A stretch of 64,000 nt of DNA from Streptomyces sp. ML-6 (lineage in GTDB: Bacteria > Actinomycetota > Actinomycetes > Streptomycetales > Streptomycetaceae), in assembly GCF_030116705.1 (NCBI RefSeq), contig NZ_JAOTIK010000001.1:434001-498000 (forward strand), read 5' to 3'. The notes under the pieces were generated by a model that was not told where the DNA came from, did not search any database, and saw only the letters and a list, made by a program, of their open reading frames with translations. Made by a program: the position numbers and the translations under genes. How positions within the stretch are numbered: position 1 is the first letter of the stretch; every line of letters starts with the position of its first letter. Positions 45,033 through 64,000 of the stretch are shown in pieces.

Positions 45033-45812
45033 TCAGTGGACGGACAGGCCGCCGTCGACGAAGAGCGCCTGTCCGGTGACGTAGCCGGAGGCGCGGCCGG
45101 CCAGGAACACCGCCGCTCCGGCGAAGTCCTCGGCCAGGCCGTTGCGGCCGATCATCGTGCGCGCGGCCAGTGCGGCCACCTTCTCCGGGTCGGAGGACAG
45201 CCGCGCGTTGAGCGGGGTCATGACGAAGCCGGGTACCAGCGTGTTGCAGGTGACGCCGTGCGGCGACCACGCCTCGGCCTGGGAGCGGGCCAGCGACTCC
45301 AGCGCCCCCTTGGAGACCCCGTAGGCGCCGCTCTGGACGAACGCCCGGTGCGCCTGTTGGGAGGTGACGTGGATGATCCGCCCGAAGCCCCGCTCGGCCA
45401 TGCCGGGCCCGAACCGCTGCCCCAGCAGGTAGGGCGCCTCCAGGTTCACCGCCATCGTGGCGTCCCACACGTCCTCGTCCAGCTCGTCCATGGGCGGCCG
45501 CAGGTTGATTCCGGCGCTGTTGACGAGGATGTCGGGCTCGCCGAACACCTCCACCGCCCGCTCCGCGGCCGCACGCACTCCGTCCCGGGTGCTCAGATCG
45601 GCGCTCACCCAGGCCGCCCGGCAGCCCTCCGCGACCAGTTCGTCGGTCGCGGCGGCCAGTTCCGGCTCCTTGCGCGCCACGATCACGACGCGCGCCCCCG
45701 CCCTCGCGAGGGCCCCGGCGATCGCACGGCCGATCCCGGAACTGCCGCCCGTCACCACGGCGACCCGGTCGTCCAGGGAGAAGAGTTCGGAGAGATAGCG
45801 CTGCGAGGTCAT
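45033..45812 (-). CDS. SDR-family oxidoreductase, coupled to a P450
   Basis: 259 residues, classical SDR: VAVVTGGSSGIGRAIAGALA, VNSAGINLRPP, the Ser segment IIHVTSQQAHR and YGVSKGALESLARSQAEAW with Tyr and Lys. The N-terminus resembles gluconate 5-dehydrogenase-type SDRs. The ATG overlaps the P450 stop by four bases. The two could oxidise the same substrate in turn. Confidence 0.92.
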   Translation of the reverse strand: MTSQRYLSELFSLDDRVAVVTGGSSGIGRAIAGALARAGARVVIVARKEPELAAATDELVAEGCRAAWVSADLSTRDGVRAAAERAVEVFGEPDILVNSAGINLRPPMDELDEDVWDATMAVNLEAPYLLGQRFGPGMAERGFGRIIHVTSQQAHRAFVQSGAYGVSKGALESLARSQAEAWSPHGVTCNTLVPGFVMTPLNARLSSDPEKVAALAARTMIGRNGLAEDFAGAAVFLAGRASGYVTGQALFVDGGLSVH

Positions 45813-47077
45813 GTCCGCACCCTAGAGGGCACGTCCACGGCGCCAGGACCCGGGTGGGCGTTTCGGGCGAGACGCACCGGAAGGGTGGCGAAGCCGTACG
45901 AGATGAAGGTCTCCAGCGGCTCGGCCGGTGCCGCCCCGTCGTCCAGGGACAGGCCGGGGAAGCGGTCGAACAGGGCGGGAAGGGCGATCGACGCCTCCAG
46001 CCGGGCCAGCGGGGCGCCGATGCAGAAGTGGACGCCGTGGCCGAAGGAGAGGTGCTCCTTGTCGGCGCGGGAGAGGTCGAACCGGTCCCCGGCCGGGCCG
46101 TGCCGTCGGGGGTCCCGGCCGGCTGCGGCGTAGGTGGCCAGGATCGCGTCGCCGCGCGCGAGGGTGACCCCGCCGGGGAGCTCGATGTCCTCGACCGCGT
46201 AGCGCAGCGGCAGGTTGGCGACCGGCGGGGACCAGCGCAGGGTCTCCTCGATGACGTCGTTCCAGGAGAACTCGCCGTCCCGTACCCGGGCGAGCTGTTC
46301 GGGGTGGGTGAGCAGGGCGTGGACGGCGTTGCCGATCAGGTTGACGGTGGTCTCGTGGCCGGCGGAGACGACCAGGAGGAGGGTGTCGACGAGTTCGTCC
46401 TCGGTGAGACGGGAGCCCGCCTCGTCGCGGGTGGCGATCAGGGCGCTGGTGAGGTCGTCGGCGGGCCGTTCGCGCTTGGCGGCGACCAGGCCCGCGAGGA
46501 GTGCGTACGCCTCGTGCAGGGTGGCGAGGGCCGCCTCCGGCGCCGCGGTGGTGTCGAAGATCTCGCTGACCAGGCGTGCGCTGTCGGTCCTCCGGTCCTC
46601 GGGGATGCCGAAGAGTTCGCAGATGACGGCCACCGGCAGCGGGTGGGCGAAGGCGGCCCGCAGGTCGGCCCGGCCGTCGGGGGCGGCGGTCATCCGGTCG
46701 AGCAGCGTCGCGGTGATCTCCTCGATGCGGGGCCGCAGCGCGTCGGTCCGCCGTTTGGTGAAGGCGGGTGCGACGAGCCCGCGCAGCCGTCGGTGGTCGG
46801 CGCCGTGGGCGGTGAACATGTTGGTCACGCCCACCCAGGTGTTGATCCAGCCGTCCCGGTGTTTTCCCTCCTGCCAGGCCGGCCAGTGCCGGTTCGGGTC
46901 CTTGGACACGCGGTCGTCGGTGAGGAGTTGCCTGAGCACCTCGAATCCGGTGGGGGCCCATGCCCTGATCCCGCCGGGGAGTTCGACCGGGGCGACGGGT
47001 CCGTGGCGCCGGAGCTCCGCCGCCTCGCCGTGGATGTCGCGGCCCGCGGGGTCGATGACGATCGGCTGCTGTCCCAT
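45809..47077 (-). CDS. Cytochrome P450
   Basis: 422 residues, bacterial class I P450. The I-helix is AGHETTVN (~239), the K-helix EETLRWSPP, and the heme loop FGHGVHFCIGAPLARLEA with the Cys ligand near 352. The N-terminus is short and soluble. It resembles the CYP107 group, but the subfamily is uncertain. No ferredoxin gene is adjacent. GGGAGA precedes ATG 47077. It forms an operon with the SDR. Confidence 0.95.
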   Translation of the reverse strand: MGQQPIVIDPAGRDIHGEAAELRRHGPVAPVELPGGIRAWAPTGFEVLRQLLTDDRVSKDPNRHWPAWQEGKHRDGWINTWVGVTNMFTAHGADHRRLRGLVAPAFTKRRTDALRPRIEEITATLLDRMTAAPDGRADLRAAFAHPLPVAVICELFGIPEDRRTDSARLVSEIFDTTAAPEAALATLHEAYALLAGLVAAKRERPADDLTSALIATRDEAGSRLTEDELVDTLLLVVSAGHETTVNLIGNAVHALLTHPEQLARVRDGEFSWNDVIEETLRWSPPVANLPLRYAVEDIELPGGVTLARGDAILATYAAAGRDPRRHGPAGDRFDLSRADKEHLSFGHGVHFCIGAPLARLEASIALPALFDRFPGLSLDDGAAPAEPLETFISYGFATLPVRLARNAHPGPGAVDVPSRVRT

Positions 47078-47314
47078 GGAGATCTCCCGTCTGCGTTGCG
47101 GCACGGCCGGAACGGGTGTCTGCGGTACAGGAGTTCATCGTCGGGGTAGCGCGACGGAGCGTGGAAGGGCGTGCGACGGCGCGCAGCGGCCGAGCGGGCG
47201 GCCCGCGCGCCCCCGGGTGGCGATGCGGTGACCGGCGGGCCCGGCCGTACGGCGGGCAGCGGGCAGCGCGGGCGGGTCGTGGGCATCGGCCGCAAAGAGG
47301 CGGATCCGGTCCGC

Positions 47315-52762: not shown

Positions 52763-53440
52763 ATGCCCAAGCAGGTGGATCACGCGGGTCGGCGTCACCT
52801 CATCGCCGAGGCGGTCTGCCGCCTCGCCGACGAACGCGGGCTGGAGGGCGTGACCCTTCGCGACGTCGCCGCCCGCGCCCAGGTGTCGATGGGCGCCGTC
52901 CAGCGGTGCTTCCGCACCAAGGAGGAGATGCTCGTGTTCACGCTCGGGCACATCGGCGAACGGGTGGGCGAGCGGGTGCGCGCCCGCCTCGTCAGGAGCC
53001 CGGCCCAGTCGGCCCGTACCGCCCTGGGGCACGCGGTCACCGAGGTCTCGCTGCTCGAGGAGGAGCACCACGCCGAGGCCAGGGTCTGGCTCGCCTTCCT
53101 CGCGCAGGCCGCCGTGGACGAGTCGCTCGCCCGGACGCTCCGGTCGAACTACGCGGCCCTGCAAGGGGCGTTCGTCCGTCTCGCCACGGAAGCCGCACGG
53201 AGCGCCGAGGACGGCGGGAGCACCGAGGACGGCGAGAACGCCGGGACCGCCGAGGGAGCCGACGGCGCCGCGCCGTTCGATCCGCTCGTCGAGGCCCGCG
53301 CGCTCCTCGCCCTCGCGGACGGCCTCACCGCACACGTCCTCATCGGCCATCTCGCACCGCAGGAGGCGCGGGAGGTCGTCCACACCCACCTGGAGAACCT
53401 CTGGGAACGCCTCTCCCGGCCTGCCCGCACCGCATCCTGA
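52763..53440 (+). CDS. TetR-family repressor of the amidase
   Basis: 225 residues. The HTH is GRRHLIAEAVCRLADERGLE, GVTLRDVAARAQVSMGAVQR and CFRTKEEM, resembling the PfmR/BetI-like TetR_C group. The C-terminal domain has an acidic low-complexity insert (SAEDGGSTEDGENAGTAEGA). It faces the amidase across twin dyads, so it probably represses both the amidase and itself in answer to an amide or acid ligand (inference). Confidence 0.9.
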   Translation: MPKQVDHAGRRHLIAEAVCRLADERGLEGVTLRDVAARAQVSMGAVQRCFRTKEEMLVFTLGHIGERVGERVRARLVRSPAQSARTALGHAVTEVSLLEEEHHAEARVWLAFLAQAAVDESLARTLRSNYAALQGAFVRLATEAARSAEDGGSTEDGENAGTAEGADGAAPFDPLVEARALLALADGLTAHVLIGHLAPQEAREVVHTHLENLWERLSRPARTAS

Positions 53441-56526: not shown

Positions 56527-56815
56527 ATGTGCCGGGATCCGGTGGCCGGGCGGGCCGCCCGCGGCGGTCGTACCGTGCCGGCGGCGCCGGACTCCCGGCC
56601 CGGGCCCGCCCCCACATCACCCGATCGGCCTAATCCCGGGCGGGCGTGTGCACCGCCGCGGCGGGCGGTCAGCGCCGAACCGCCACAGGTGCGGCAGTCG
56701 GCTGCCGGGGGCCGGGAGGTTGCAGCGTCCATCCGGGTGAGGCGCGATGGAATCCGGACGCGCCTCACCTGATGGACCGAGCCACAGGACGCGCCCGGGC
56801 GAGGAGGAATCGGTC

Positions 56816-57838
56816 ATGGGAGCCGCTGACGGTTTCACGGATTCCGGAGAACTCGACGGCCTGACGGTGTACGACACCGACGGTGAGAAGGTCGGCAGTG
56901 TGGGCCGGGTGTACGTCGACGACAACACCGGCCGTCCGGACTGGATCACGGTGAAGACCGGACTGTTCGGCATGAAGGAGAGTTTCGTCCCGCTGGCCGG
57001 AGCCCGGCGGGTGGGGTCCGACCTGCACATCTCGCACTCGAAGGAACGGGTCAAGGAAGCGCCGCGGGTGGACGCGGACGCGCATCTGTCCGTGGCGGAG
57101 GAGGAAGAGCTCTACAACCACTACGGCCTCCCCAGGAACACCGCCACCTCGTTCGGCGAGCGGCGGGGAACGGGCACCACGGGAACGGCGGGAGCGGCCG
57201 GAACCGGCGCCATGGGCGCTGCCGGCACCGGACGCGCCGACGGACCCGGGCGGACGCCCATGCCCGGCACCACCGCCTCCGGCACGGGAACGGCCCGCAC
57301 CACCTCGTCCGGCATGTCCGGCACCGGCATGGGGAAGGGCGGGCGCCGCGAGACCGGGGCGGCCGGCACCGCCCGTCCGCTCGTCGGCGCCGGGGCGGGC
57401 TCCGAGCGGTCCGCCGCCGACCTGGGCGGCAAGGAGGAGATGATCCGCTGCGAGGAGCAACTGCACGTCGGCACCGAGGAGTACGAGAGCGGGAAGGCCC
57501 GGCTGCACAAGTACGTGGTCACCGAGAACGTCACCCGGACCGTGCCCGTGACGCACGAGGAGGTACGCCTGGTCCGCGAACCGCTGCAGCCCGGCGACCG
57601 GCCTGCGGGGCGCGCGGAAATCCGTGACCAGGACGTCGAGGTCACCCTGCACGCCGAGCGCGCCACCACCCGCAAGGAGACCGTGCCCGTGGAGCGGGTG
57701 CGCATGGAGACCAGGAGGGTGACCGAGCAGAAGGAGGTCTCCGCCGAACTCCGCAAGGAGCAGATCGACTACGCGGACGACACGCAGACCGGTGGCAAGG
57801 ACATGGGAGGCGAATTCGGCCGGGGACGCCACCGCTGA
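56816..57838 (+). CDS. PRC-barrel and DUF2382 stress-type protein
   Basis: 340 residues. An N-terminal PRC-barrel domain (LDGLTVYDTDGEKVGSVG, DWITVKTGLFGMKESFVPLA; residues ~10-85) is joined by a long Gly/Thr/Ala linker (~110-205) to a C-terminal DUF2382 domain (IRCEEQLHVGTEEYESGKAR, VPVTHEEVRLVREPL, VPVERVRMETRRVTEQK). Such proteins are common in desiccation- or stress-related actinobacterial sets. GAGGAGG lies seven bases before the ATG. Confidence 0.92.
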   Translation: MGAADGFTDSGELDGLTVYDTDGEKVGSVGRVYVDDNTGRPDWITVKTGLFGMKESFVPLAGARRVGSDLHISHSKERVKEAPRVDADAHLSVAEEEELYNHYGLPRNTATSFGERRGTGTTGTAGAAGTGAMGAAGTGRADGPGRTPMPGTTASGTGTARTTSSGMSGTGMGKGGRRETGAAGTARPLVGAGAGSERSAADLGGKEEMIRCEEQLHVGTEEYESGKARLHKYVVTENVTRTVPVTHEEVRLVREPLQPGDRPAGRAEIRDQDVEVTLHAERATTRKETVPVERVRMETRRVTEQKEVSAELRKEQIDYADDTQTGGKDMGGEFGRGRHR

Positions 57839-58009: not shown

Positions 58010-59233
58010 CTACGGGCGCTGGAGGGCGAGCACGGCGTTGTGCCCGCCGAATCCGAAGGAATGGCTGACGGCGCGCCGGACGGTCCGGTGCAGGGGCCGC
58101 TCGGTGACGCAGTCGATGTCGAACCCGGGCGCCGGGGCGTCCAGGTTGGCGATCGGCGGTACGACACCGCGCTGGAGCGTGAGGACCGTCAGCCCGGCCT
58201 CGATCGCCCCGGCCGCCCCCATGCAGTGCCCCAGCACGCCCTTGGGCGCGGTGACGGGGGGCCGGTGGGGGTAGACCCGGGCGATGAGGGCGGCCTCGGT
58301 GGCGTCGTTGGCCGGGGTCGCCGTGCCGTGGGCGTTGACGTGTTCGACGTCCTCGGCCGCCCAGTCCGCGTCGCGCAGCGCGGCCTCCACCGCCGCCTGG
58401 GCGACCGCGCCGGACGGATGCGGGCGGATCGGGTGGTGGGCGTCGGTGGTGGCGCCGGTGCCGGCCAGCAGGGCCCGGGGCGCGGCGCCCCGGGCATCGG
58501 CGTCGTCCGCCCGTTCCAGCACCATGACGGCGGCGCCCTCGCCCATGACCAGCCCGGCGCGGTCGGCCGCGAAGGGCCGGCAGAGCAGGGCGGGGTCGCC
58601 GTCCTTCCGGGCCCCGGCCCCGGACCGGGCGAACCCGGCCATGGCCACCGGGTAGACGATCGACTCGGTGGCTCCCGCGAGGGCGATGTCGCACTGCCCG
58701 GTGGCCAGCAGGTCGCGGGCGACGGACAGCGCGGTGGCGCCGGACGAGCAGGCGGTGCAGGGCGCCAGGCTGGGTCCGGTGGCCTTCATCTGGATCGCGA
58801 TCTCGGCGGCGGGCATGTTCGGGATCGTGAGCAGGATGCCCGACGGGGAGGTGGCCCCGGCCCCCGCCCGTTCGAGCACCACGGCCTGCTCGGTCAGTGA
58901 GGCCGACCCCCCGCTGCTGGTGCCGACGACCACCGCGACCCGGCCGCCGTCCCACCGGGCCGGGTCGAGTCCGGCGTCGGCGACCGCCTCCCGGGCGGCG
59001 AGGACGGCGAACTTCACGTATCTCCCCATGCGGAAGGCCGCACGGCCGCCGATCGCGGCGTCCAGGTCGATGCCGTCGACGACGCAGGCGAAGTCGATCT
59101 CGCACCCGTCCAGTTCCGCGACGGTCCGGGCCGGCGAGACACCGGCGCACACGCCGTTCCAGGTGGACTCGGTGTCGTTGCCGACCGGGGTGATCATGCC
59201 CAGGCCGGTGACGGCGATGGCCGGTTTGTTCAT
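58010..59233 (-). CDS. Beta-ketoacyl-ACP synthase (FabF type) KS1
   Basis: 407-residue condensing enzyme with an intact Cys-His-His triad: Cys in CTACSSGATALS near 161, His in VNAHGTATPAND near 301 and His in PKGVLGHCMGAAGA near 338. The sequence ends with SHSFGFGGHNAVLALQ. The ATG overlaps the ACP stop by four bases. It is strikingly similar to KS2 (61666-62943), including the DGIDLD segment, as if the two arose by duplication or form a KS/chain-length-factor-like pair. Confidence 0.93.
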   Translation of the reverse strand: MNKPAIAVTGLGMITPVGNDTESTWNGVCAGVSPARTVAELDGCEIDFACVVDGIDLDAAIGGRAAFRMGRYVKFAVLAAREAVADAGLDPARWDGGRVAVVVGTSSGGSASLTEQAVVLERAGAGATSPSGILLTIPNMPAAEIAIQMKATGPSLAPCTACSSGATALSVARDLLATGQCDIALAGATESIVYPVAMAGFARSGAGARKDGDPALLCRPFAADRAGLVMGEGAAVMVLERADDADARGAAPRALLAGTGATTDAHHPIRPHPSGAVAQAAVEAALRDADWAAEDVEHVNAHGTATPANDATEAALIARVYPHRPPVTAPKGVLGHCMGAAGAIEAGLTVLTLQRGVVPPIANLDAPAPGFDIDCVTERPLHRTVRRAVSHSFGFGGHNAVLALQRP

Positions 59234-59505
59234 CGGGCGCCGCTCATCGCGCTCTCGCCGCCCACCAGCGCCCCGCCGTCGGTCGCCTCGATGAACCGGG
59301 TGATGTCGGCGAGGGTGGCGTTCTTGGGGAGGCGGTCGAAGTCCTGGTCGCCGCCGACGGTCTCCCTGAGGAGGACGGCGAACTCGGCGGCGGCCAGGGA
59401 GTCCATCTCCAGGCTGTCCATCGTGGAGTCCGGGCGGATCTCGCCGACGGGCACTTTGAAGGTGTGCGTCAGCACCTCGGTGATCTTGGGATGAATCGCA
59501 CTCAT
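59230..59505 (-). CDS. Acyl carrier protein
   Basis: 91 residues. The phosphopantetheine Ser 36 lies in LEMDSLAAAEF, preceded by VGEIRPDSTMDS; the remainder fits the four-helix ACP fold with a longer C-terminal tail. It is coupled to KS1 and belongs to a four-gene set rather than to primary fatty-acid synthesis, as no fabD/fabH are here. GAGGAAG precedes the ATG. Confidence 0.9.
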   Translation of the reverse strand: MSAIHPKITEVLTHTFKVPVGEIRPDSTMDSLEMDSLAAAEFAVLLRETVGGDQDFDRLPKNATLADITRFIEATDGGALVGGESAMSGAR

Positions 59506-59592
59506 GATCTTCCTCTTCGTCGTTCGGCCGTCGTCCGGCCGTCTTTCGGTCCGGCTGCCGGGCCCGGCGGAGCATCGTCCCGACGTCGAATC

Positions 59593-59642
59593 AACTGGGC
59601 GGAGTGCCTCCAGTTACGCCTTGTGCCGAACCGATTCGGCAC
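59593..59642. promoter_or_regulatory. Two dyads upstream of the ACP gene
   Basis: GTGCCGAA-CCGA-TTCGGCAC (59623-59642) is a perfect dyad. AACTGG (59593-59598) pairs with CCAGTT (59610-59615). Both lie in the 281-bp gap before acp-KS1 and may be operators or a terminator of the upstream oxidase transcript. Confidence 0.5.
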
Positions 59643-59786
59643 CACTTTCCCCACGCCCCGCGCAGCATCGGGCCAGAACCGTCGTCGTCCCCCAGAAAGC
59701 CAGCAGGACAACCCGGGTCCCGAGGGCCCCGGCAACCTCCCGGACCCGGCGGGGACGCACAGGCGTTCCCGTCTCCCCCGGGGTTC

Positions 59787-61652
59787 TCATTGCTCCTCCG
59801 CAGCCGTCGTCCGCTCCCCGTCCGTGTGCCAGGGGGCAGCCGGATCGTCGTACGCCTCCAGGTAGTCGGCCCCGGCGATGGGCCAGTCGGCGAGCACCTG
59901 CGGCGGCAGCGCGAAGGACTCGACGAGGTCCGGGAGCCGGGCGGCGACGGCGGTGACGAGCTCCTCCACCGCGTCCGGCAGCCCCTTGACCTGACCGGTC
60001 GTCAAATACCCTGCGGCCAGCAGATCACCGCTGTTGCGGGCGACGACGTCGAGCGCGAACAGCCGTTGCAGTTCGTCGAGCCGGTCCCTGGCGGGTCCCT
60101 CGGGCAGGGCGGCCACCGCCTCCGCGTACGCCTCGGCCGCCTGGCTGCACGCGTGCGCCTCGACGCCGCGCAGCGCGGGCCCGGCCGCCGCGTTCCAGCG
60201 GGCCAGCCGGTCGCCCCGCGGGGCGAGAGCGATCCGTTCCCCGGCCCGCGCGAACCAGATCCGTTCCAGGGCCGCGAGCAGTCCGCCGAGGAACCGGGGG
60301 TCGTCGAGCGCGCCGGTGGTCGCGGCGGGGGGATCGTCGTACCCGGCCGGCGGGGCGGCGAACAGCATCTCGGCGGCCGCCTTGGCGTGGATGGCCACGT
60401 TGTCGCCCTCGGCGGTGATGGCGCCCTCCACCCCCGTGACCAGTTCGCTCATGCCGTTGTGTTCCAGGAGCGCCTGGGCCCCGCAGCGTTCCCGGCACTC
60501 GACGATCACGGACCTCGCCCGCCAGGTGATCCATCCCTTGGCGACGGCGACCAGCCGCTCCGCCTCCTCCCGCCCCTCCCCCGGCCCCTCCCGCTCCCAG
60601 CGGTCCAGGGCCCTGCGGTGCAGCAGGCTCATCGCGAAGACGGTGGCCATGGCGTGGGCGAGCGGGCCGTGGTGGCTGCGGTGGGCGATCACCGGCACCG
60701 GCCGCGAGCCGCGGGGGCCCGAGATGTACCGGTGCCCCCCGTAGCGGACGGCGACGGCGAGCGTCGCGCGGGCCGAGCCGACCGCGCAGGCGGTCATCGA
60801 GATCTTGCCGGAGGTGACCCGGCCGATCGAGGCCAGGAAGCGGCGCCTCCGGTTGGCCACGGCGCTGCTGAACTCCCCGTCGTCATCGATGCGTCCGTGC
60901 TCCCCGCCGAGCAGCGCCGCGCGCTCCACGAAGACCCGGTCGAAGGAGGTCAGGCAGTGGTCCACCGGACTGCCGGTGCGGGCGGGCAGCCGGCGCACCC
61001 GGATGCCGGGCAGGGCCCGTTCGGCGTCGGTGAGCGGCACGAGGAAGAGGAAGACGCCGTGGTCGTCCCCCTCGACGATCAGCCGGGCCGCCACCAGTCC
61101 GGTCTTGGGGCCGCCGACCGGGCTGGTGTTGGGCATGAACTTCTGGGCCCCGGCGTGCGGGGTGTGCAGCACGAACCCGTCGCGTCCGCGGTCGTAGGCG
61201 GCCGTGGTCTCGACGGCCGCGGCGTCGTTGCCGTGCGCCACCTCCGTACAGAGGAAGGTGCCGACGCTGCGCAGCCGGAGGAAGTCGGAGAGGTCGCGGG
61301 AGGTGTCGCCCCCGTGGTCGAGGAGGCTGCCGAGGAAGAGGTTGTAGTGGATTCCGGCCACCGTGGCGAGCGCCGGGTCGACCGGGCCGAGCCACTCGTG
61401 CAGGGCCGCGAGGGCGCGCGCGTCGGCGGCCAGCCGGGCGCCGCTGTCCAGGCATTCGTTGAGGACGCGCAGCCGCTCGTACACGAGGGCCAGGCGCTCG
61501 TCGGGGGTGCGCAGGTCCGGGCGGCGGAACGGTTCCGTGCTGATCATCCGTTGCCAGAAGCCGTGCTCCCGGCGGAAGTCGTCGCCGAGGAGGACACCGG
61601 TGAGCAGATCCGTGGACCGTTCGGCGGAAGGGCTGTCGATCGTTGCGGTCAT
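59787..61652 (-). CDS. Acyl-CoA oxidase
   Basis: 621 residues, four-helix/beta/helix acyl-CoA oxidase family, which makes trans-2-enoyl thioesters with FAD and oxygen. Features: a flavin-region stretch LCTEVAHGNDAAAVETTAAY, the substrate segment KFMPNTSPVGGPKTGLVAA, and the catalytic Glu in AITAEGDNVAIHAKAA. It starts 14 bases after the KS2 stop and precedes acp-KS1 by 281 bp. In a biosynthetic set it may install a double bond on an ACP- or CoA-bound chain. Confidence 0.9.
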   Translation of the reverse strand: MTATIDSPSAERSTDLLTGVLLGDDFRREHGFWQRMISTEPFRRPDLRTPDERLALVYERLRVLNECLDSGARLAADARALAALHEWLGPVDPALATVAGIHYNLFLGSLLDHGGDTSRDLSDFLRLRSVGTFLCTEVAHGNDAAAVETTAAYDRGRDGFVLHTPHAGAQKFMPNTSPVGGPKTGLVAARLIVEGDDHGVFLFLVPLTDAERALPGIRVRRLPARTGSPVDHCLTSFDRVFVERAALLGGEHGRIDDDGEFSSAVANRRRRFLASIGRVTSGKISMTACAVGSARATLAVAVRYGGHRYISGPRGSRPVPVIAHRSHHGPLAHAMATVFAMSLLHRRALDRWEREGPGEGREEAERLVAVAKGWITWRARSVIVECRERCGAQALLEHNGMSELVTGVEGAITAEGDNVAIHAKAAAEMLFAAPPAGYDDPPAATTGALDDPRFLGGLLAALERIWFARAGERIALAPRGDRLARWNAAAGPALRGVEAHACSQAAEAYAEAVAALPEGPARDRLDELQRLFALDVVARNSGDLLAAGYLTTGQVKGLPDAVEELVTAVAARLPDLVESFALPPQVLADWPIAGADYLEAYDDPAAPWHTDGERTTAAEEQ

Positions 61653-61665
61653 GAAAATATAACGA

Positions 61666-62943
61666 TCAAGCAATGGCGAGGACACCCGGTTCCGTGCGCG
61701 GCGGGCCGTCCCCGGAGAACCGCTGGAAGGCGAGCACGACGTTGTGCCCGCCGAAGCCGAAGGAGTGGCTCAGCGCCCGCTCGACGTGCTGGAGGCGGGG
61801 CTCCTTGACCACGCAGTCCAGGTCGAACCCGTCGGGCAGCGAGTCCAGATTGGCGATGGGCGGTACGAGGCCGTGCTCCAGGGTCAGTACGGTGGCGGCC
61901 GCCTCGATCGCCCCGGCCGCGGCGAGGGTGTGTCCGAGTACCCCCTTGGGGGCGGTCACCGACGGGCGGTGGGGGAAGAGCGACGAGATCAGGGTGGTCT
62001 CCATCGCGTCGTTCAGCACCGTGGACGTGCCGTGCGCGTTGATGTGGTCGACCTCGTGGGCCGCCCAGCCCGCCTCCGCCAGCGCGGACTCGACGGCCCT
62101 GCGCGCCCCGCCGCCGTCCGGCGGCGGGGCCGTGGGGTGGTGGGCGTCGGTGGCGGCGCCCGCACCGGTCAGCAGGGCGCGCGGGCGGGCGCCGCGGGCG
62201 AGCGCGTCGTCCGTGCGCTCCAGTACGAGCACGGCGGCGCCCTCGCCGATCACGAAGCCGTCCCGGTCGGCGGCGAACGGCCGCGAGGCCCCCGCCGGGT
62301 CGTCCCCGCGCAGGGAGAGCGCGCCCATCCCCGCGAAGGCGCTCACCACCAGCGGGGTCAGCACGGACTCCGCGCCGCCGGCCACCACCACGTCGCACCG
62401 GCCGCTCGTCAGCAGGTCGCGGGCGACGGCGAGCGCAGTCGCCCCGGACGCGCAGGCGGTCGCCGGGGCCAGGCTGGGGCCGTGCGCCCGCAGGGCGATG
62501 GCCACCTCCCCGGCGGCGGCGTTGGGCATCATCATCGGGACCAGGAGCGGCGAGACCGCGTCCGGTCCGCCGCCGTCGAGCCGGCGCACGTTGTCGACGA
62601 GGACGGAGACCGCACCCACCCCGACGCCGAGCACCACGCCGACCCGGTCGCCGTCCCACCGCTCGGGCGAGAGGCCGGCGTCCGCCACCGCCCGGCGGGC
62701 GGCGACCAGCGCCATCTTCACGAACCGCGCCATGCGCCAGACCGTCCGCCCGCCGACGGCCCGGTCCAGGTCGATCCCGTCCACCGGACAGCCGAAGTCG
62801 ACCGGCAGCCCGGCCAGTTCGTCGCAGCCCCGGGCCACCGAGACCCCGGCGCACAGCCCCTCCCAGAAGGTCTGCTCCTCCGCGCCCGCGGGCGTCACCA
62901 GCCCCAGTCCCGTCACCGCGACCCCCATGCCGACCCGCGCCAT
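61666..62943 (-). CDS. Beta-ketoacyl-ACP synthase (FabF type) KS2
   Basis: 425 residues. The triad is Cys in ATACASGATALAVA near 164, His in INAHGTSTVLND near 303 and His in PKGVLGHTLAAAGA near 336, all intact. A chain-length factor would normally lack the Cys, so both KS proteins could condense. ATG 62943 is used; an upstream GGAGGAGG is somewhat far (11 bases), and the in-frame Met two codons later is possible. It is the first gene of the cluster. Confidence 0.93.
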   Translation of the reverse strand: MARVGMGVAVTGLGLVTPAGAEEQTFWEGLCAGVSVARGCDELAGLPVDFGCPVDGIDLDRAVGGRTVWRMARFVKMALVAARRAVADAGLSPERWDGDRVGVVLGVGVGAVSVLVDNVRRLDGGGPDAVSPLLVPMMMPNAAAGEVAIALRAHGPSLAPATACASGATALAVARDLLTSGRCDVVVAGGAESVLTPLVVSAFAGMGALSLRGDDPAGASRPFAADRDGFVIGEGAAVLVLERTDDALARGARPRALLTGAGAATDAHHPTAPPPDGGGARRAVESALAEAGWAAHEVDHINAHGTSTVLNDAMETTLISSLFPHRPSVTAPKGVLGHTLAAAGAIEAAATVLTLEHGLVPPIANLDSLPDGFDLDCVVKEPRLQHVERALSHSFGFGGHNVVLAFQRFSGDGPPRTEPGVLAIA

Positions 62944-63131: not shown

Positions 63132-64000
63132 TCAGGCCCGGGCGGTCCGATCGAGTGCCGTCGCCAACTCCCTCGCGTCCGGCGGGTTGGCGCCGGCCCG
63201 GGAGACGGTCACGGCGGCGGAGGCCACCGCATGGCGCAGGACGTCGGCCACCGTGTCCCGGTCCGTCGCGCGCAGCCGTTCCCGGCCGTCGGCGCCGAGC
63301 AGCCCGTGCGCGGCCAGGGCGTGCAGGGTGCCCGACATGAAGGCGTCGCCCGCCCCCACCGTGTCCACGACCTCGACGGGCAGGGCGTCGACCGTCACCC
63401 GCGCACCGGGCAGGACGGCCAGCGCGCCGTCGCCTCCCCGGGTGACCAGGACGAGGGCCGGGCCGGTGGCCAGCCACCGTTCCGCGACCCGTCCGGGGTC
63501 CTGGCCCGGGTGGAGCCACTCCAGGTCCTCGTCGCTCGCCTTGACCACGTCGGCGAGCGCGACGCACCGCTCGACCCTGCGCACGGCGTCCCGGTGCTCC
63601 CCCATCAGTCCGGGCCGCACGTTGGGGTCGTAGCTGACGGTCGCGGACGCCCGCAGCGACTCGACGGCGCCGAGGACGGTCGCCGCGCCCGGTTCCATCA
63701 CCGTCGCGACGGAGCCGATGTGGACGTGGTGCGGGGTCCGGTCCGGGGCGACCGGGCCGAGCGTCCAGGTGATCTCGAAGGTGTACTCGGCCCGGCCCCC
63801 GGCGTCCAGGGTCACGGCCGCGGACGGGGTGGCGGCCGTGGCTCCGTCCGTGCGCACCTCGACGCCGGCCCCGGTCAGGTGGTCCCTGATCAGCCGCCCG
63901 TTGTCGTCCGGGCCGAGCTGGGTGAGCAGGGTGGTGTCGTGGCCGAGCCGGGCCAGGCCGAGGGCGACGTTGGCCGGACTGCCGCCCGGGTGGACCCGGT
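63132..64000 (-). CDS. PfkB-family carbohydrate kinase, N-terminus cut by the window
   Basis: The visible ~289 codons include GGSPANVALGLARLG near the N-terminal end, the NVRPGLMGEHRDAVRRVE substrate region and the ATP/anion-hole motif DTVGAGDAFMSGTL. It is probably a fructokinase or ribokinase-like enzyme. The N-terminal ~20-30 residues lie beyond the right edge. It is 188 bp from KS2 and probably unrelated to it. Confidence 0.92.
   Translation of the reverse strand, partial: RVHPGGSPANVALGLARLGHDTTLLTQLGPDDNGRLIRDHLTGAGVEVRTDGATAATPSAAVTLDAGGRAEYTFEITWTLGPVAPDRTPHHVHIGSVATVMEPGAATVLGAVESLRASATVSYDPNVRPGLMGEHRDAVRRVERCVALADVVKASDEDLEWLHPGQDPGRVAERWLATGPALVLVTRGGDGALAVLPGARVTVDALPVEVVDTVGAGDAFMSGTLHALAAHGLLGADGRERLRATDRDTVADVLRHAVASAAVTVSRAGANPPDARELATALDRTARA

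Follow-up and report, generated by a model that had tools for sequence, protein, structure and literature searches.

A conserved operon encoding two FabF-type ketosynthases (KS1 and KS2), an acyl carrier protein (ACP), an acyl-CoA oxidase and a small open reading frame (ORF) of 58 aa was identified in a stretch of 64,000 nucleotides from Streptomyces sp. ML-6 (hereafter referred to as the window), which corresponds to C1:434001-498000 in a genome of 9.1 Mb assembled in 5 contigs. The operon is proposed, with a probability of roughly 0.6, to constitute a dedicated chain-extension and desaturation unit that would give a 2-enoyl chain together with partners of the primary fatty acid synthase (FAS). 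As it combines chain-building enzymes of its own with an oxidase related to Aco, the oxidase of the avenolide loci, its product is probably an unsaturated fatty chain, which may be a signal.

Organisation of the operon

The five genes lie on the minus strand in the final 6 kb of the window, in the order KS1, acyl-CoA oxidase, 58-aa ORF, ACP and KS2. The features and their flanks are as follows.

61666-62943, minus strand: KS1, FabF-type ketosynthase, 425 aa; Cys-His-Lys-His intact; Pfam ketoacyl-synt N and C domains
59787-61652, minus strand: Aco-superfamily acyl-CoA oxidase, 621 aa from the ATG at 61652; catalytic Glu415
59614-59790, minus strand: 58-aa ORF, homologous to the oxidase-fused C-terminal tail of the S. 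griseus group
59230-59505, minus strand: ACP, 91 aa; EMDSL phosphopantetheine motif; Pfam PP-binding domain
58010-59233, minus strand: KS2, FabF-type ketosynthase, 407 aa, sister of KS1; Pfam ketoacyl-synt N and C domains
63132-64000 and continuing beyond the window, minus strand: flanking PfkB-family kinase (Pfam)
56747-57838, plus strand: convergent flanking PRC-barrel/DUF2382 protein (Pfam)

KS1 is separated by 13 bases from the ATG of the oxidase, for which a GTG at 61685 is a possible alternative start, and ATGA overlaps join the oxidase stop to the 58-aa ORF and the ACP gene to the start of KS2. The original prediction, made from the sequence of the window, had described two similar FabF-type ketosynthases, an ACP and an acyl-CoA oxidase bounded by a PRC-barrel gene and a sugar kinase. 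All four genes were confirmed in place, as were both bounding genes, the sugar kinase being the PfkB kinase that ends at 63132; the reported lack of a ketoreductase, acyltransferase, thioesterase or regulator gene within the cluster was borne out as well. Its reading of the genes as a compact cluster for an acyl chain, with both ketosynthases of the active type, stands, while the kinship of the oxidase to Aco, the apparent loss of a KASIII gene and the small ORF had been overlooked.

Conservation across Streptomyces

The operon is real and old, and not a chance grouping of genes. A homologue scan with KS2 retained 79 loci, 52 of which (L009-L060) are from Streptomyces; the operon, or as much of it as the contigs show, occurs in identical order in 52/52, so that the synteny search suggested with the original prediction recovered the same visible neighbours throughout. 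At the remaining 27 of the 79 loci, the KS was the only match among the eight window proteins searched. The complete KS2 copies in Streptomyces are 74-98% identical to that of the window (the copy in L058 is truncated by a contig end). Both the PfkB and the PRC-barrel flanks are visible in 31 of the 52 loci, the others showing one flank or a contig end, and in seven (L028, L035, L038, L045, L055, L057 and L060) the operon is located at other genomic sites, with a short-chain dehydrogenase/reductase (SDR) gene downstream in five and an MFS gene upstream in two.

Oxidases of the window type (at least 62% identity) were found in 16 of 121 evenly sampled Streptomyces genomes, including the source genome and one case split over two matches; besides the source genome, this amounts to roughly one in eight (15/120). 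Class-wide, matches of at least 72% were obtained in 4/394 genomes, all of them Streptomyces. The NG86 dN/dS values between the window and six relatives are 0.18-0.35 for KS1, 0.25-0.39 for the oxidase and 0.15-0.22 for KS2, and the phosphopantetheine motif of the ACP is present in 52/52 loci. Two loci in the later sets are duplicates of these (L140 = L010; L142 = L042).

In L010, L012, L017, L050 and others, genes for a FecB-like lipoprotein and a FecCD-like permease, named by eye from their sequences, lie between KS2 and the PRC-barrel gene; they are lacking in the window. These genes and a membrane protein gene around the operon were rejected as its parts, as their presence varies among the relatives.

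Ketosynthases KS1 and KS2

The identity between KS1 and KS2 is 59%; with Escherichia coli FabF, KS1 shares 39% and KS2 34%. In the alignment, restricted to sequences longer than 380 aa and including the window (49 KS1 and 52 KS2 rows), every row (49/49 KS1 and 52/52 KS2) retains the active-site Cys, His, Lys and His, in agreement with the predicted intactness of both enzymes; as also predicted, both carry the Cys that a usual chain-length factor (CLF) lacks.

Phylogenetic analysis grouped KS1 and KS2 in a joint clade (100/100) that divides into separate KS1 and KS2 clades (98/98 and 100/100) with broadly matched branching. The joint clade is nested in a further clade (100/100) of ketosynthases that mostly adjoin KASIII or ACP genes, and the tree separates it from the FabF of the source genome, from the KS/CLF-like pairs of that genome (labelled from gene pairing) and from E. 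coli FabF. The reference ketosynthases were drawn from the source genome, plasmids, distant genomes and E. coli, with authenticated FabF3 and RedR outside the set. This phylogeny had been set beforehand as a test that could refute the original prediction, and it did not place KS1 or KS2 with either FabF. The claim that they are not ordinary FabF enzymes holds in that both fall below the fabF equivalog cut-off of 493.75 bits (KS1 419, KS2 369), and is weakened by the less stringent KAS II subfamily model PRK07314 (cut-off 387), which KS1 passes (413.5) and KS2 fails (363.9).

At column F134 of the alignment, Leu is found in 49/49 KS1 and Gly in 52/52 KS2. This column corresponds to F133 of mature E. 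coli FabF, which we take to line the acyl pocket of the partner subunit at the dimer interface, and the Leu/Gly difference points to either differing chain preferences or a mixed pocket, without favouring or disfavouring a heterodimer. An obligate KS1-KS2 heterodimer resembling those of type II polyketide synthases (PKSs), with both subunits condensing, is a conceivable arrangement to which we give rather low odds: the two proteins co-occur wherever the contigs reach, form sister clades and differ consistently at the F133 position, but full catalytic sets in both are what two homodimers differing in chain length would show, and their genes are non-adjacent. The KS/CLF pairs of type II PKSs resemble the operon in having two KS-fold proteins and an ACP; however, one subunit of such pairs lacks the Cys that both KS1 and KS2 possess, and the KS/CLF-like pairs of the source genome are placed elsewhere in the tree. 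As KS1 and KS2 group with ketosynthases that partner KASIII, KS/CLF is a poor comparison.

Among other loci, L133 and L135-L138 carry KASIII/KS sets (with an ACP in 3/5) and a distant oxidase (29-35% identity). L135-L138 have two KASIII genes and an SDR gene, with no ORF longer than 1,200 aa called nearby. These loci possibly represent another undescribed type of lipid cluster.

The oxidase and its kinship to Aco

The oxidase is assigned to the acyl-CoA oxidase family on the basis of its ACOX_C_alpha1 and ACOX domains, both scoring above the Pfam cut-off, its catalytic Glu and its predicted fold. Solved acyl-CoA oxidases are matched at the sequence level (E 1e-28) and, by a predicted model with a mean pLDDT of only 68, also in fold (TM 0.74). 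A search of PHROGs with the oxidase gave no match.

The available part of one published account defines an avenolide-type butenolide locus as a TetR_N receptor gene, a cytochrome P450 (P450) gene and an ACOX gene (PMC7347384). In the parts available of other published descriptions, the arrangement in S. avermitilis is aco/cyp17/avaR1, Aco is proposed to form the C2-C3 double bond of avenolide, and Aco homologues are 46-63% identical to one another.

Among the matches listed from a plasmid collection are Streptomyces proteins 50-56% identical to the window oxidase and outside its own family; two annotated plasmid oxidases that were examined adjoin a P450 and ScbR-family receptors. In the sampled genomes, 32 places encode full-length oxidases of 48-55% identity, and 28 of them were fetched (L096, L106-L132). 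This P450 and receptor pair is present at 11 of the 28 and not at the other 17, although the absence in L120 may reflect a contig end, as the contig begins beside the oxidase; three plasmid loci also have both. The window oxidase is 47-56% identical to these 14 oxidases that lie beside Cyp17-type P450s and ScbR-family receptors.

A tree of 52 oxidases, of which 16 are of the window type (the partial sequences from L060, L023, L137 and L040 were left out), united the window-type clade (100/100), the receptor-linked oxidases and the P450-less oxidases in one clade (100/99), hereafter the Aco superfamily, which a long branch separates from the oxidases of the other KASIII/KS sets. Within it, the tree sets the window clade apart from two receptor-linked clades without resolving the deepest forks. 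The catalytic Glu is present in all Aco-superfamily rows (54/54, 14/14 and 17/17), whereas four of five outside oxidases lack a Glu at the position aligned, the alignment being at about 30% identity. The window operon thus shares with the Aco loci of S. avermitilis and its relatives (aco/avaR1/cyp17) the superfamily clade, as judged from a tree built without the authenticated S. avermitilis Aco, as well as the catalytic Glu and a TAEGDN motif. It differs in that the Aco loci have an adjacent P450 and ScbR-family receptor, in place of which the operon has dedicated KS1, KS2 and ACP genes (and KASIII in relatives).

The source genome also encodes a paralogue of the oxidase (L096:11191-13080; C2:969232) with 51% identity, beside which neither a P450 nor a receptor gene is found. 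The clade of this paralogue (with L117, L119, L121, L122, L125, L130 and L131), made up of oxidases that likewise lack these neighbours, has no neighbour family common to three or more of its eight loci.

A KASIII gene in many relatives

Upstream of KS1, a KASIII gene is present in 29 of the 52 loci and absent in 19, the contig ending first in four; in many relatives it is situated between the PfkB gene and KS1, and the window has no KASIII gene upstream of KS1. The copy in L050 contains both Pfam KASIII domains, most copies at other loci share 68-95% identity with the copy used as query, and the best match in the source genome reaches only 43%. In a tree of concatenated KS1 and KS2 sequences (28 loci with KASIII and 20 without, the window included), a single change accounts for the distribution, on a branch that is weakly supported (70/11). 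The pattern fits one loss in the lineage of the window. From these data, the form of the operon without KASIII is probably derived, yet maintained.

The small ORF and the oxidase tail

In 22 of the 52 relatives, chiefly members of the Streptomyces griseus group, the oxidase extends by about 50 residues into a tail with the pattern LLAYWGT..VL.RW......ESVRxKA; the window and 21 relatives have the homologue of this tail as a separate ORF. The separate ORF overlaps the oxidase stop by four bases (ATGA or GTGA) in 20/20 checked relatives with a full oxidase, L011 included. Shortened kin of the ORF occur in L055-L057 and a weak match in L035 (tblastn E 4e-4); in L028, L038, L045 and L060, no tblastn match below E 0.12 was obtained. 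The small module was likewise not found at the 14 receptor-linked loci, the 17 other Aco-superfamily loci or six outside loci (no tblastn match better than E 0.1), the best receptor-linked match (E 0.13) lying away from the oxidase.

For the final 30 codons, pN/pS amounts to 0.28 in the 22 fused and 0.65 in the 21 split forms, in comparison with 1.02-1.30 in the wrong frames, which supports a constrained, coding ORF. A database search returned six homologues, unnamed or hypothetical, and the hydropathy of the middle part is borderline for a membrane helix. A conserved DNA element of 28 nt upstream of the ACP gene was considered as an operator and rejected, as it is the 3' end of the small ORF (ESVRxKA-stop), for which pN/pS supports coding; Rfam gave one sub-threshold match to the element (22.5 bits vs 71).

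Fusion, coupling and joint retention make an interaction between the small module and the oxidase plausible. L141 retains a window-type oxidase at the corresponding site, flanked by an MFS gene on one side and FecB-like genes on the other, with the small module directly after it (tblastn 74%, E 2e-8), and KASIII, KS1, ACP and KS2 are gone. This suggests that the oxidase and the small module form the core, which could draw on acyl chains of primary metabolism. The module, fused or split, and retained with the oxidase in the single relative that has lost the ketosynthases, offers a new handle on the workings of these oxidases.

Proposed function and alternative explanations

From the observed gene set, gene order, catalytic residues, family placement and co-conservation, a series of steps may be proposed, in keeping with the mechanism of acyl-CoA oxidases and the roles of the catalytic residues in FabF. 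A starter would be loaded on the ACP, formerly from the KASIII of the operon and, in the lineage of the window, from a KASIII of primary metabolism; KS1 and KS2 would extend it with malonyl-ACP, while FabG, the dehydratase, the enoyl reductase and FabD would be taken from the primary FAS. The Aco-type FAD oxidase would then remove the alpha and beta hydrogens, with Glu415 as the base, to yield a trans-2-enoyl thioester and H2O2. The oxidase may act jointly with the small module, either fused to it as a tail or coupled to it as a subunit and possibly located at the membrane, and the 2-enoyl chain would be released or handed to unlinked enzymes, there being no thioesterase, P450 or receptor gene linked to the operon. 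With the catalytic Glu of the oxidase intact, the unsaturated acyl chain built with primary-metabolism partners, as put forward in the original prediction, remains the natural reading. Several observations weigh against it: the operon has no known product, the dN/dS of the short ACP gene is high and noisy (0.38-1.02), the small ORF of L011 is frameshifted, and the gene content of L141 indicates that the oxidase may not need KS1, KS2 and ACP.

A more specific possibility is that the product is an avenolide-like butenolide or other diffusible signal, with the chain set by the dedicated KS and ACP proteins, the C2-C3 double bond introduced by the oxidase and C4 hydroxylated for lactonisation by an unlinked P450. 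The position of the window oxidase in one clade with the 14 receptor- and P450-linked oxidases, at an identity comparable to the range published for Aco homologues, is in its favour, and the source genome contains 26 matches to an Aco-linked P450, the best of which (48%) lies in the window. That P450 (45809-47104, minus strand, 431 aa), which forms an overlapping pair (45033-47104) with an SDR gene, is the closest relative in the source genome (48-51%) of the P450s of avenolide loci. It is, however, 11 kb from the operon, and such closeness occurs in only 2/16 genomes (G028 being too fragmented to tell) and 4/52 loci (of which L010 is one of the two genomes); the P450 (match 45866-47068) resembled a missing Aco partner and was rejected as a part of the operon because the closeness is not conserved. 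Four ScbR/ArpA-family receptor matches were found in the source genome, none on the contig of the window, the best ScbR-like one (45%) being on another contig, and no such receptor was found in any of the five window-type loci searched (L139-L143; L009-L060 were outside this search). With neither P450 nor receptor linked, and the window clade separate from both receptor-linked clades, a signal of this kind is regarded as possible but doubtful. Somewhat more speculative still is the view of the operon as a FAS-coupled branch of the avenolide hormone system, in which an Aco-type synthase with its own chain-building enzymes and small partner module would make an undescribed 2-enoyl or butenolide signal.

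The gene kinds also recall the fab modules of lipopeptide clusters, and the operon might accordingly supply a 2,3-unsaturated or epoxy acyl chain to a nonribosomal peptide synthetase (NRPS) encoded elsewhere in the genome. In the available parts of the published descriptions, compared here by gene descriptions, the 2,3-epoxy chains of cystargamide (ctmA-D) and CDA (fabH4, fabF3, hxcO, hcmO) are attributed, as a proposal, to a KASIII, a KASII, an ACP and an HxcO-like oxidase; genes of these kinds make up the operon, with KASIII in relatives only. KS1 and KS2 are kin of the ketosynthases of similar sets, and NRPSs are encoded in the genome (56 condensation-domain matches). On the other hand, the operon has two ketosynthases, the closest condensation domain in the source genome, the one genome scanned, is about 86 kb away, and the oxidase lies on another branch, sharing 29-35% identity with its counterparts in the other KASIII/KS sets, four of five of which lack the aligned Glu, though these are not authenticated HxcO proteins. 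We therefore consider a lipopeptide role improbable. Least probable of all is a catabolic oxidase of beta-oxidation grouped incidentally with the other genes: the acyl-CoA oxidase fold and residues would suit it, but the grouping recurs at 52 loci, across more than one genomic setting, and an oxidase confined to 16 of 121 sampled Streptomyces genomes is unlike a core catabolic enzyme.

In the openly licensed literature, judged by titles and the beginnings of abstracts, no characterised cluster of this make-up and no published KAS-Aco cluster was found. The fatty-acid cluster C12-2 (fasA-K) of Streptomyces sp. NP10, a relative of S. griseus, likewise has KASIII, ACP and KASII genes outside the main FAS locus; it differs in having an A-factor hotdog gene, two KASIII genes, reductases and an exporter, and the part of its published gene table available lists no acyl-CoA oxidase.

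Significance

According to the available part of a genome-mining study, Aco-type butenolide synthases were counted solely by identity, at a threshold of 50%, in 74/415 genomes (PMC5575351). As window-type oxidases lie at this threshold and have different partners, counts of this kind may mix two systems. If the operon does make a signal, its chain length and starter could be read from the dedicated KAS genes, and its compactness makes it testable in one strain.

Other genes in the window

A BetI-type TetR regulator, for which no connection to the operon was seen, is encoded at 52763-53440 on the plus strand, beside a run of amidase, alcohol dehydrogenase and GNAT genes.

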